From NCBI GenBank assembly GCA_012520615.1, contig JAAYNX010000177.1:1-34596 (forward strand): a stretch of DNA of 34,596 nt. The letters run 5' to 3'. Source of the stretch: Clostridiaceae bacterium (GTDB taxonomy: Bacteria; Bacillota; Clostridia; DSM-8532). The notes beneath the pieces are model-generated. The model was not told where the DNA came from and made no database searches. It worked only from the letters and a program-made list of their open reading frames with translations. A program made the translations under genes and the position numbers. Below are positions 19,819 to 33,459 of the stretch, in pieces; position 1 is the first letter of the stretch, and each line of letters opens with the position of its first letter.

Positions 19819-19820
19819 TT

Positions 19821-19863
19821 TATAACGAGAATAAAGGTTTCCCCCATATCTCTTAAGTGGCGG
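19821..19863 (-). repeat. Intergenic repeat family, module A (copy R, hisF-rex)
   Basis: Minus strand CCGCCACTTAAGAGATATGGGGGAAACCTTTATTCTCGTTATA; aligns with modules at 23635-23673 and 32592-32631. Confidence 0.55.
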
Positions 19864-21380: not shown

Positions 21381-22063
21381 ACTTTACGCACCACCTTTAG
21401 AAAATTATTTATTATGGCTAACCCCACCTTACCGCTTTTTTCGGGATGAAACTGGGTTGCATAAACATTGTCACTTGATATGGCAGCGTCAAAAGAAATT
21501 CCGTATCGGGATGTTGCCGATACAATACTTCTGTTAGATGCCTCCACATAATATGAATGGACAAAGTACAAATATGCTTCCTCATTTTGCTTGCAGTTCG
21601 TAGAAGCAGAATTATCTTGCGAATCGGTAAAGAGCCTCGCAGGAAGATTCTCAAACAATGGGCAAGGTTTGGGAAAGCTAAGATTATTCCATCCCATATG
21701 TGGTATTTTTATACCTATATCGGCAGGGAATTTTTTTACCCGCCCCTTCAATATGCCTAAGCCTTTAGTGTCTAAAAGCCCAGCAGGGTGCTCCTCACTG
21801 TATTCAAACAGTAGTTGAAATCCAAGACAAATACCCAAGAACGGTTTTCCCATATTGATACAAGTTTTTACTACCCTATCCATACCCTTTTCAACAAGGC
21901 TATTCATGCAAGAGTCAAATGCTCCTACCCCGGGAAGCACTACTGCTTCACTTTTAAGGATAGTTGCCTCATCGCTTGTTATCAAGGGGTCTGCTCCTAA
22001 CATTTTAAAGGCATTAGCCACATTTTTTAAGTTCCCAGCATCATAATCTATAATGGCTATCAT
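21377..22063 (-). CDS. hisH: Imidazole glycerol phosphate synthase glutamine amidotransferase subunit HisH
   Basis: IAIIDYDAGNLKNVANAF; VLPGVGAFDSCM; PFLGICLGFQLLFEYSEE; FHPEKSGKVG. Confidence 0.97.
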   Translation of the reverse strand: MIAIIDYDAGNLKNVANAFKMLGADPLITSDEATILKSEAVVLPGVGAFDSCMNSLVEKGMDRVVKTCINMGKPFLGICLGFQLLFEYSEEHPAGLLDTKGLGILKGRVKKFPADIGIKIPHMGWNNLSFPKPCPLFENLPARLFTDSQDNSASTNCKQNEEAYLYFVHSYYVEASNRSIVSATSRYGISFDAAISSDNVYATQFHPEKSGKVGLAIINNFLKVVRKV

Positions 22064-22950
22064 GCAGTAAACTTCTTTCCTGTAATTCTCTCGTATGCCT
22101 CGATATATTTTGCCCTTGTTTTTTCAATAACCTCTTGCGGAAGCTTGGGAGCCGGCGGCGTTTTATCCCAGTCCAGAGATTCAAGGTATTCTCTCAAATA
22201 CTGCTTGTCAAAGCTTTTTTGGGCCCTTCCCGGCTCATAATCCGCCAGTTCCCAGAATCTTGATGAGTCAGGAGTGAACATTTCATCGGCAATAACCAGT
22301 TCACCGTCCAACATGCCAAATTCAAACTTAGTATCAGCAAGTATTATTCCTCTGCTTAATGCATATTTTTCTGCTTTTTTATAAAGGGTTATCGATTTTT
22401 CTTTAAGAGTCGAAGCTAATTTCTCACCTATCTGCTTCTTAACATATTCATAGCTTACATTGATATCATGGCCTTCCGAAGCTTTTGTGGATGGAGTGAA
22501 AATAGGTTCGGGAAGTTTATCTGCCTGTTTTAAACCTTCCGGTAGCTTGATTCCGCTGATTTCCCCGGTTGACTTGTAATCCTTCAAGCCTGAACCTTCA
22601 AGGTACCCGCGCACTATACATTCAGCCTCCACCATCTTGACTCTCTTTACAAGCATGGAACGACCCTTTAGCTCCTCTTTGAATTTCGACAATCCCATAG
22701 GATATTCGGACACATCAGTGGTTATCACATGGTTTCCTATGATATCCTTGCAATAATCAAACCAAAACTCGGAAATACCGTTGAGTACGCAGCCCTTATC
22801 GGGTATCAGGTCATCAAATACTACGTCAAATGCTGATATGCGGTCGGTAACTATCATTAACAGCTTATCCGCTCCTACCTCATATACATCTCTTACCTTT
22901 CCTTTTATAAATACAGGTAAATCAATAAAATTTGTGTCCTTAATGAGCAT
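22060..22950 (-). CDS. purC: Phosphoribosylaminoimidazole-succinocarboxamide (SAICAR) synthase
   Basis: FIKGKVRDVYEVGADKLLMIVTDRISAFDVVFDDLIPDKGCVLNGISEFWF; ECIVRGYLEGSGLKDY; DEMFTPDSSRFW. Confidence 0.97.
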   Translation of the reverse strand: MLIKDTNFIDLPVFIKGKVRDVYEVGADKLLMIVTDRISAFDVVFDDLIPDKGCVLNGISEFWFDYCKDIIGNHVITTDVSEYPMGLSKFKEELKGRSMLVKRVKMVEAECIVRGYLEGSGLKDYKSTGEISGIKLPEGLKQADKLPEPIFTPSTKASEGHDINVSYEYVKKQIGEKLASTLKEKSITLYKKAEKYALSRGIILADTKFEFGMLDGELVIADEMFTPDSSRFWELADYEPGRAQKSFDKQYLREYLESLDWDKTPPAPKLPQEVIEKTRAKYIEAYERITGKKFTA

Positions 22951-23013: not shown

Positions 23014-23604
23014 TTACAATAAACCCTTAGTCGACAGAACTCCATCAATTGTCGAATCAATGGTTACTGCCTCTTTTAGAGCTCGGGCAAAGGCTTTAAA
23101 TACGGCTTCTATAATGTGGTGATTATTCTTGCCGTGTATCAGCTTGATATGAAGCGTCATGCCGCTATTAACTGCAAGGGCACGGAAGAACTCTTCAAAC
23201 ATTTCTGTTTCCATTTTACCGACTCTATCGGTTGAAAACGGCACTTCAAAATGCAAAAATGGCCTGTTGGAAAGATCAAGACTTACCAGTGCAAGGGATT
23301 CGTCCATGGGAACATAGCTTGTTCCAAATCTCTTGATGGATTCTCTCTTGCCTAAAGCATCCGAAATCGCCTTGCCCAGCACTATGCCAATGTCCTCGGC
23401 GGTGTGATGCCCATCCACAAATAAGTCTCCCTTACACTCAAGCTTAAGATCAAAACGTCCATGACCTGAAAAAAGGCATAACATGTGATCCAAAAAACCT
23501 AATCCTGTAGAAATTGTGTTTTCTCCTTTTCCATCTAGATTAAGTTTAAGAGAAATCTCTGTTTCTTTGGTTTTTCTGGATAATTCGGCACATCGCATCG
23601 TCAT
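23014..23604 (-). CDS. hisB: Imidazoleglycerol-phosphate dehydratase
   Basis: TGLGFLDHMLCLFSGHGRFDL; DGHHTAEDIGIVLG; KNNHHIIEAVFKAFARAL. Confidence 0.98.
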   Translation of the reverse strand: MTMRCAELSRKTKETEISLKLNLDGKGENTISTGLGFLDHMLCLFSGHGRFDLKLECKGDLFVDGHHTAEDIGIVLGKAISDALGKRESIKRFGTSYVPMDESLALVSLDLSNRPFLHFEVPFSTDRVGKMETEMFEEFFRALAVNSGMTLHIKLIHGKNNHHIIEAVFKAFARALKEAVTIDSTIDGVLSTKGLL

Positions 23605-23634: not shown

Positions 23635-23748
23635 CCACCTTCGAGGTGGGGGAAATTATTTATTCTCATTATAATGACATCACCCGTTACCGAAATCAAA
23701 GATTTCGAACGGGTCCCGCGTCATTGAAATTCGTTTATTCTCATTATA
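23635..23748 (+). repeat. Intergenic structured repeat (copy H, hisC-hisB): module A, hairpin B, repeated module-A tail
   Basis: CCACCT-TCG-AGGTGG hairpin and GGGGGAAATTATTTATTCTCATTATA tail; hairpin AATGAC..ACCCGTT..CGAAATC-AAA-GATTTCG AACGGGT..GTCATT (23673-23725); direct repeat TTTATTCTCATTATA at 23659-23673 and 23734-23748. Confidence 0.8.
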
Positions 23749-23760
23749 GCATTGGCATTA

Positions 23761-24822
23761 TTAACCTGCTATCATCTTCTTAACTTTTTCAACCAATTTC
23801 TCCATATCATCCTGAGTCCCTATTGTGATACGCAGCCAGTCGCAAATCTTAGGGTCTTTAAAATTCCTTATTAAAATACCCTCTTGCCTTAGTTTATATA
23901 ATGCTTCCGGCCCTGGAATGCCGGGGATTCTTATAAACAGGAAATTTGCCTTTGAATCAGTCATTTCAACACCCAAACCAAGCAGTTGTTCTTGTGTCCA
24001 TTGACGAGTTTTTATAATCATCTGTCTGGTTTGATTAAAATACTCGGTGTCACTAAACGCTGCTTCAGCTGCTATTTGGGCGATTCTGTCCAGAGGATAG
24101 GAATTAAAAGAATCTTTTACTCTGGTCAATCCATCTATCAATTCCTTGCAACCCATAGCCAGACCAATTCTTTGACCGGCTAATGCCCGTGATTTTGAAA
24201 GAGTTTGAACAACAATAAGGTTATCATACCGGGAAATCAGAGGTATGCAGGACTCACCACCGAAATCTATATATGCTTCATCCACTATAACAAGAGTGTT
24301 TGGCCGTTTTTTTAGTAATGCCTCAATGGTATCGGGCTGAATATAAATACCGGTAGGAGCGTTAGGGTTAGCAAAAATAATACCCTTCAAGTCCTCAGGG
24401 TATCGTGATAAATCAATAGAAAAATCGTTTTTGACAGGAACCTTTACGCAAGGGATATCAAAAAGCGCTCCATATACCGGATAAAAGCTGTAGGTTATAT
24501 CTGGGAATCCAATTTTTTCGGTGTTATCAAAAAACGCCTTAAAGATAAATGCCAATACCTCATCTGACCCGTTACCCGCAAAGACTTCCTCTTCTGATAT
24601 GCCATAATATTTTGACACCGCTTGTTTTATTATGGCACCCTCGCTGTTTGGATAGAGGCGCAAATCCTCCAAAACAAAGTTTCTTATCCTTTCCATAACC
24701 AAAGGCGAAGGCGGATATGGATTTTCGTTTGTATTAAGCTTAATAAATTCTTTATTATTTGGTTGCTCTCCCGGCACATAGGGAATAAGTTCCCTTGTAT
24801 TGCGACTAAAAAAACGACTCAT
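23761..24822 (-). CDS. hisC: Histidinol-phosphate aminotransferase
   Basis: KLNTNENPYPPSPLV; NPNAPTG; VDEAYIDFGGES; SKSRALAGQRIGLAMG. Confidence 0.97.
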   Translation of the reverse strand: MSRFFSRNTRELIPYVPGEQPNNKEFIKLNTNENPYPPSPLVMERIRNFVLEDLRLYPNSEGAIIKQAVSKYYGISEEEVFAGNGSDEVLAFIFKAFFDNTEKIGFPDITYSFYPVYGALFDIPCVKVPVKNDFSIDLSRYPEDLKGIIFANPNAPTGIYIQPDTIEALLKKRPNTLVIVDEAYIDFGGESCIPLISRYDNLIVVQTLSKSRALAGQRIGLAMGCKELIDGLTRVKDSFNSYPLDRIAQIAAEAAFSDTEYFNQTRQMIIKTRQWTQEQLLGLGVEMTDSKANFLFIRIPGIPGPEALYKLRQEGILIRNFKDPKICDWLRITIGTQDDMEKLVEKVKKMIAG

Positions 24823-32562: not shown

Positions 32563-32591
32563 AATTGGACCTCCTTATAATTCTTTTTCTC

Positions 32592-32731
32592 TAACGAGAA
32601 TGTATATTTACCCCACCTCTTTAATGGTAGGTTGGGTTCACTATCACAGGCGGGGTTATCTTCCCCACCTCGAGTTTCAACGACTCGGGACCTGTTCGAA
32701 ATCTTTGATTTTGGTAACGGGTGAGGTCGTT
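32592..32731 (-). repeat. Intergenic structured repeat (copy F, nfeD-flotillin): hairpin B then module A with duplicated AGGTGGGG arm
   Basis: Minus strand AACGACCTCACCCGTTACCAAAATCAAAGATTTCGAACAGGTCCCGAGTCGTTGAAACTCG, 54/61 identical by hand count to 23673-23733; followed by AGGTGGGG..CCCCGCCT..CCTACC..AGGTGGGG and TAAATATACATTCTCGTTA. Confidence 0.8.
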
Positions 32732-33459
32732 TAAATAATCTCCTTAGGGACATTATCCTTTGGTATTTCCGTTGGCACTACTAATAGCACACCTTCGGAT
32801 TCAACACCTTGAACTGTAATTTTTTCACCTGTTTTTAAAGTGCGTTCTCTATCTGTGACCGCATTAACCTCAGTCAGCCTGTCTTGAATAATAACGATTA
32901 CTTTTCCGACACCGCTTTTTAACGGTGGTATGGGTATGTACACTTCACCTGTTACTCCTATTGCATTATCCAGAACAATATTACCTTTTTGTTGAAGCCG
33001 CAATACTGTTCTTAATGACCACGCTACGAAATAAAGCGCCATCCACCCTGCCAGAAGAGCTAGCAAAACAGCTCCAGGTATGGGTACTCCCCATCCGATG
33101 GCAGCAACACCCATCCAACCTCCTATCGAAAGGAATCCTATAATACCTCTCAAGGTAAACAGCCTTAAAGAATCTGCCTTGCTGCCGGCATCATCACCGT
33201 GTTCATCGATATTACTTAGATGATCATCGTAAATGTCATGGGGCTGGTCATCTGCTATATCATCGGGTATCCCGTCGTCAAAGTCGGTATCCAAATCGCC
33301 ATCGGCGAAATCATCAGCGCCGTCTAAACCATCGGCCCCAACCCCCTGAACAAACCCGAAAAATGACATAACAAACTGAAAAATCATAATCATTGTTGCA
33401 GGAATAGCAATATAGGCAAAAGCCTGCTGCAGCCCCGTCATCTCATTCCACCAGTCCAT
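32731..33459 (-). CDS. NfeD-like membrane protein with a strongly acidic loop
   Basis: Hydrophobic segments, Asp-rich loop, LRGIIGFLSIGGWMGVAAIGW, C-terminal OB-like IGVTGEVYIPIPPLKSGVGKVIVIIQDRLTEVNAVTDRERTLKTGEKITVQGVESEGVLLV; adjacent to flotillin. Confidence 0.85.
   Translation of the reverse strand: MDWWNEMTGLQQAFAYIAIPATMIMIFQFVMSFFGFVQGVGADGLDGADDFADGDLDTDFDDGIPDDIADDQPHDIYDDHLSNIDEHGDDAGSKADSLRLFTLRGIIGFLSIGGWMGVAAIGWGVPIPGAVLLALLAGWMALYFVAWSLRTVLRLQQKGNIVLDNAIGVTGEVYIPIPPLKSGVGKVIVIIQDRLTEVNAVTDRERTLKTGEKITVQGVESEGVLLVVPTEIPKDNVPKEII

Follow-up and report, generated by a model that had tools for sequence, protein, structure and literature searches.

A structured hairpin repeat between hisC and hisB and its relatives: a candidate superfamily of small mobile elements

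What occupies the gap between hisC and hisB in this Clostridiaceae genome, and does it belong to the operon or has it moved there? The window, that is, the whole stretch of 34,596 nucleotides that was analysed, carries both genes on the minus strand (hisB 23014-23604, hisC 23761-24822; identities by NCBIfam), within a run of his genes that also encloses purC (22060-22950). The gene coordinates bear out the 156-bp spacing with a strong hairpin to which a sequence-only reading had drawn attention, and the sequences it quoted are present. That reading took the content for one modular repeat. The structured repeat is there, but it consists of two units, a compact complete one and the truncated left end of another; the "small hairpin" and the "tail" described earlier are present and belong to this second unit, not to the compact one.

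Units of this family are built from a left hairpin (P1) and a right hairpin (P2) and sort into three classes, whose labels are our own: class I opens with TATAACGAG, class II with TATAnCATGAATTT or ATACGGAGTAT, and class III combines CAAGG with a tiny P1. Read in the order of the minus (operon) strand, the gap comprises TGCTATAAT, the compact unit (GAGAATAAACGAATTTCAATGAC...P2...GTCAT), TATAAT again, and the left end of the second unit, which ends after its first small hairpin. TTTATTCTCATTATA is present twice, at 23659-23673 and 23734-23748, on either side of the compact unit. The minus strand is also the family-model strand for this unit, with 74 bits for the covariance model R2 (see below) against 25 on the other strand. 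The features of the window are the following.

23668-23748 (-): compact class I unit with a TATAAT box at each end (R2 match 23673-23736 (-), 74.3 bits; BLAST)
23743-23748 (-): TATAAT within TGCTATAAT, upstream of hisB; the unit is placed at this -10-like box of the host, which relatives lacking the unit retain
23720-23725 (-): outer closing stem, 5' side (AATGAC), with the same covarying pair as the 3' side GTCATT
23682-23714 (-): right hairpin P2, ACCCGTT CGAAATC TTT GATTTCG gt AACGGGT, 14 bp with a 2-nt bulge (folding and covariation)
23673-23678 (-): outer closing stem, 3' side (GTCATT), with a covarying pair (UA 29, CG 7, GC 3, GU 2)
23635-23673 (-): left end of the truncated second class I unit (TATAATGAGAATAAATAATTTCCCCCACCTCGAAGGTGG, which also opens full class I units such as L003, L004, and L096)
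32590-32735 (+): full-length but aged class I unit, oriented opposite to the flanking genes (R2 match 32668-32731, 73.8 bits)
32690-32722 (+): P2 hairpin of the 32590-32735 unit (sequence)
19820-19863 (+): lone class I left end between rex and hisF (sequence comparison)

The hairpin of the gap recurs on the opposite strand at 32671-32731, and the identity of 54/61 counted by hand in the earlier reading is exact on recount (BLAST E 4e-16). The change reported between these copies at the third pair of the outer stem, from T-A to C-G (AATGAC/GTCATT versus AACGAC/GTCGTT), is real. The stretch 19821-19863, listed earlier as a further copy, is family sequence but represents the left end of a unit only. 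The right end of the unit at 32590-32735 (positions 32731-32735) also supplies the stop codon (TAA) of the minus-strand gene at 32731-33459.

Searches of the host genome and of its relatives returned many further intergenic copies in both. The host alone yields 52 BLAST matches at a loose threshold and 32 matches with the first covariance model, some of them in head-to-tail arrays with a period of 68 bp. Across the searches, tandem arrays had periods of 68, 137, and 126 bp. The 68-bp arrays of the host often lie at contig ends (contigs C28, C151, C246, C202, C176, and C89), as would be expected if longer arrays had been truncated in the assembly. BLAST detects copies in 15 of 31 further genomes of the family and in none of 29 genomes from other families; where relatives have a name, the records are metagenome-assembled genomes of uncultured Clostridia. 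The first covariance model matches 20 of 33 genomes of the order. With model R1, matches came from 6 of the 398 other genomes in a phylum sample, including G437, with at least 13 copies whose P2 stems are entirely different. Adding the members found by R1 gave model R2, which on a class sample detects the element in 70 of 391 genomes and 44 of 222 genera (a per-genome count near 13 in this search reads as at least 13). The element is thus spread over a class of gut and digester bacteria. Searches of viral contigs and of plasmids gave no match. A single match lies on MT835596.1 (L309), an unannotated human gut scaffold labelled "Bacteriophage sp.", where the neighbouring ORFs look bacterial, one being sortase-like by eye; this record is possibly a mislabelled bacterial contig. 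In Rfam 15, the element stays below the gathering threshold, and a relaxed search gave only tRNAs and sub-threshold matches. No description of the family was found in the open-access literature searched, and as far as this literature goes, the element is previously undescribed.

Comparison of the copies reveals a common plan: TTAT(A), P1, CAAYG or CAAGG, a short spacer, P2 with a bulge of 2-3 nt, the closing half of the outer stem, and TTAT(A). The covariance model has the same architecture, with a variable left hairpin, CAAKG, a bulged right hairpin, a closing stem, and TTAT. P1 varies freely in size (TTACGAAGTAA, TTGCGAAGCAA, ATACGGAGTAT, or a 13-bp stem enclosing three hairpins), the smallest form being a hairpin of 4 bp and the largest a cloverleaf with three hairpins, and units measure about 70-150 bp. 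P1 and P2 both occur in all subclasses, so that each end has a subterminal hairpin, the two lying on the same strand, and a TTAT(A/T) box stands at both unit ends. The ends of class I, TATAAYGA...TCRTTATA, resemble short inverted repeats, limited to TATAAYGA; terminal inverted repeats are absent from classes II and III. Truncated units also exist, with the truncation at either end.

Selection on the structure had been proposed from the single compensatory pair, and covariation reaches far beyond it. Among 43 core modules, that pair is UA in 29, CG in 7, GC in 3, GU in 2, and UG in 1. Across 20 full-length class II units, two-sided changes affect 10 of the 55 pairs, amounting to 15 cells as compared to 3.1 in shuffles (0/500) and 0-7 in slid controls. 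The superfamily alignment, which was fitted to the model and is hence biased towards structure, displays 9 of 18 pairs with 55 two-sided cells against 7.4 in shuffles (0/500) and at most 16 in slid controls. The class II count rests on a named structure in full-length units and replaces the RNAalifold consensus, which was misleading on an alignment of mixed lengths in which short units were misaligned. Exchanged stems are also directly readable in the sequences, as in GCCGTCGGAAGC/GCTTCCG..ACGGC and ACCCGCCCGCAATC/GATTGCG..GGCGGGT. The hairpin is more stable than expected by chance: the z value of the his copy is -2.45 on the minus strand and -3.75 on the plus strand, and that of a full-length relative is -7.65.

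The structure has a preferred strand. We call canonical the strand with G-T wobbles in the closing stem; on the complement, these pairs would be A-C mismatches. Of 26 superfamily members, nearly all fold better on the canonical strand than on the complement; together with the wobbles, this points to a single strand in its folded state (DNA or RNA) as the probable functional form. Within the host family, P2 substitutions leave 23 G-T and 22 A-C mismatches, a neutral-looking ratio. Old copies thus look free of visible selection, as would be expected of the dead copies of a mobile element.

Is the repeat nevertheless a fixed regulatory RNA, a leader or attenuator of the his and other operons? Its covarying, stable structure would suit such a role, as would the position of class II units upstream of genes in one orientation and the presence of decayed class I units at the same hisB site in two relatives (G001 and G002). 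The hisC-hisB site of G011, however, is empty and reads ATGATATAATGAGATAGG (a similar box is found in G003, G004, G008, and G013), and that of G006 and G007 holds an unrelated hairpin repeat. These empty and foreign-filled sites largely refute the regulatory reading, against which also stand the mixed orientation of class I (11 versus 8), the G530 copies located behind terminators (see below), the neutral decay of old copies, and the lack of a fitting Rfam family; we consider it very unlikely. Other loci tell the same story. The L002 copy is absent from three species with a clean junction, L004 also has an empty site among relatives, the L010 locus contains a class I unit in G011 and the bare CAAGTCTATAAAAACAG in the host genome, and a class II unit of G018 stands where G023 reads AATTATAACATATTTT. 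In the clear empty/filled comparisons, a TTATA-like box occurs once when the site is empty and on both sides when it is filled, which fits either a 4-5-bp duplication or a box borne by the element. Empty sites in relatives, copies in both orientations, and identical copies within one genome (G530, see below) indicate that the element is mobile, and a mobile, structured repeat family is very probably what fills the gap. The preference of the earlier reading for a mobile element over a fixed cis-regulator is upheld by the empty sites, the foreign-filled site, and the mixed orientation of class I, and the check it proposed came out in its favour, with many more copies and covariation well past the single pair. 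The unrelated hairpin repeat of the his site, CATTCTGAGCGAAGCGAAGAATC ... GATCCTTCGACT..CGCTCAGGATGACA, lies directly behind the same -10 box in G007 (L122) and G006 (L123); it is also observed at L014, L083, L085:4073-4175 (-), L095, and L106, nested in or abutting P2.

The insertion sites are not random. In the host's family, 42 of 49 class II units are oriented towards the gene on their left (p 4e-7), and orientation relative to the gene on the right is random (22 to 23). Its left junction is ATTATA, i.e. TATAAT towards the gene, in 28 of 36 units, some of which are inner units of arrays. After the right box, nCA, corresponding to the TGn of an extended -10 box, was counted by eye in 14 of the 22 class II copies without a following unit, and TGnTATAAT-type boxes exist in relatives without the element (L151, L146, and L263). 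From these motifs, we conclude that class II probably lands on -10 boxes, leaving one on each side; the boxes themselves are putative promoters.

A second kind of transcription boundary is targeted in G530, a genome of 1.76 Mb with recent activity and the clearest case of targeting. A unit of 70 nt is present there in 39 copies, of which 18 are identical, and one head-to-tail pair has a period of 69. An intrinsic terminator directly precedes 33 of these 39 copies, as compared to 88 of 400 element-free intergenic TTTATT sites (22%; p 7e-15). The T-tract is always to the left of the canonical strand, and TTTAT is found at most left junctions. The feature shared by -10 boxes and terminator T-tracts is the TTAT box, and it is likely that the element targets transcription boundaries.

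Group IIC introns insert at terminator T-tracts, and the precise, orientation-fixed insertion behind intrinsic terminators, seen in G530 only, recalls them. A retro-mobile element using a reverse transcriptase and such T-tracts could also leave truncated units. The truncations occur, however, at either end, and the element carries no group II intron hallmark: domain V is missing (no Rfam match), and P2 lacks a fixed catalytic triad, given that covariation affects half of its pairs and entire stems have been swapped. A crude motif search of G530 detected no group-II-type reverse transcriptase and no RT-like ORF. This origin appears extremely improbable.

Which enzyme, then, might move the element? 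The earlier reading had called it REP/MITE-like; its mobility stands, as documented by the empty sites and both orientations, but the likeness to either type holds only loosely, as neither the REP foot nor a TnpA_REP in the host is found and most subclasses lack terminal inverted repeats. REP, BIME, and REPIN elements share with it the bulged hairpins, the mosaic and tandem layout with head-to-tail arrays, and a strand-specific fold (PMC6006769, PMC8266576), and Y1_Tnp genes occur, one each, in five of eight copy-bearing relatives and twice in G530. A REP is defined by a GTAG or GTGG tetranucleotide 0-2 nt 5' of the hairpin (PMC6006769). In contrast, the foot of the aligned family and superfamily members is CAAYG or CAAGG, not GT[AG]G, and the unit is longer and made of two modules. 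Moreover, Y1_Tnp has no match in the host genome (98% complete), nor in G016, G023, or G027 (with G027 at a completeness of only 84%). The two Y1 genes of G530 (C8:93357-93863 and C14:23807-24325) are single-copy and REP-type, at 78 and 59.9 bits against the REP_Tyr_transpos cut-off of 80. Neither these nor the Y1 genes of the five relatives have the element next to them. A REP/BIME-type element moved by TnpA_REP (RAYT) is consequently improbable. By eye, GTAG-type palindromes are seen within the coding sequences of the G530 Y1 genes, and this genome appears to carry a canonical REP family distinct from the present element. The RAYT as a partner was not supported by the searches of the host genome and eight relatives, nor by a phmmer search of G530.

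If the element were an ordinary MITE moved by a DDE transposase (IS630-like or another), with a TTATA target and a 4-5-bp duplication, this would account for the class I ends that look like short inverted repeats, and for a box present twice in filled sites and once in empty ones. Yet, classes II and III share P2 and the TTAT box without any terminal inverted repeat, both end modules are internally covarying hairpins, and no transposase with such ends was seen; this alternative is unlikely. Bacterial MITEs such as Correia/NEMIS, RUP, and ERIC are similarly small, protein-less, and intergenic, with an AT-rich target and hairpin transcripts (PMC2229807). They differ from the present element in having terminal inverted repeats, which most of its subclasses lack, and in their target, a bare TA rather than TTAT(A) at transcription boundaries. 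The element therefore behaves as a small mobile hairpin repeat but lacks what defines REPs and classical MITEs.

Elements derived from IS200/IS605 have in common with it a hairpin near each end, a short box beside the left end and at the right end, and an asymmetric strand, although no TnpA with the element's ends was found in the host, the relatives, or G530. Likewise, no autonomous copy, with an ORF between left and right ends, was detected in G530 nor among the matches listed for five relatives, and the genomes searched yielded neither an autonomous partner nor a mobilising enzyme. The closest described elements, compared by description, are bcr1-bcr3 of the Bacillus cereus group, which according to excerpts of two reports are about 100-400 bp long, lack an ORF, have a stable structure, and occur in tens of copies, frequently within UTRs or gaps of operons, with a mobility tied to one or more TTTAT motifs (PMC6542083; PMC3446304). 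The likeness lies in an ORF-less structured repeat with a TTTAT-like end motif, and is a resemblance between descriptions, not homology. In these excerpts, bcr1-bcr3 are reported only from the B. cereus group, with no terminator or -10 targeting described (PMC6542083; PMC3446304).

Taken as a whole, we lean towards a new superfamily of small, non-autonomous mobile elements made of the two hairpin modules P1 and P2. As to how they move, the folded canonical strand may be recognised and moved by some enzyme, in the way IS200/IS605-type HUH transposases act on end hairpins; such a single-strand, HUH-like mechanism is possible but less likely than not. Insertion would leave a box on each side, and the neighbouring promoter or terminator would survive. 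With promoter or terminator intact, insertion would be harmless, so that copies could accumulate, also head to tail. The most complete version of this scenario combines a class-wide, hairpin-only superfamily, a mobiliser distinct from known Y1 and DDE enzymes, and fixed-orientation homing to DNA left un- or weakly paired by transcription (-10 boxes and terminator T-tracts), the box on each side keeping the promoter or terminator. In its entirety, it is tentative and rather doubtful.

Small structured repeats have so far been known from single groups, such as Bacillus cereus. Here, one architecture is traceable over at least 44 genera, with stem sequences replaced and pairing kept, which makes for a rare long evolutionary record. 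The preference for -10 boxes and terminator T-tracts suggests a testable explanation for the low cost of intergenic repeats to their hosts, and the missing mobiliser is something concrete to look for.
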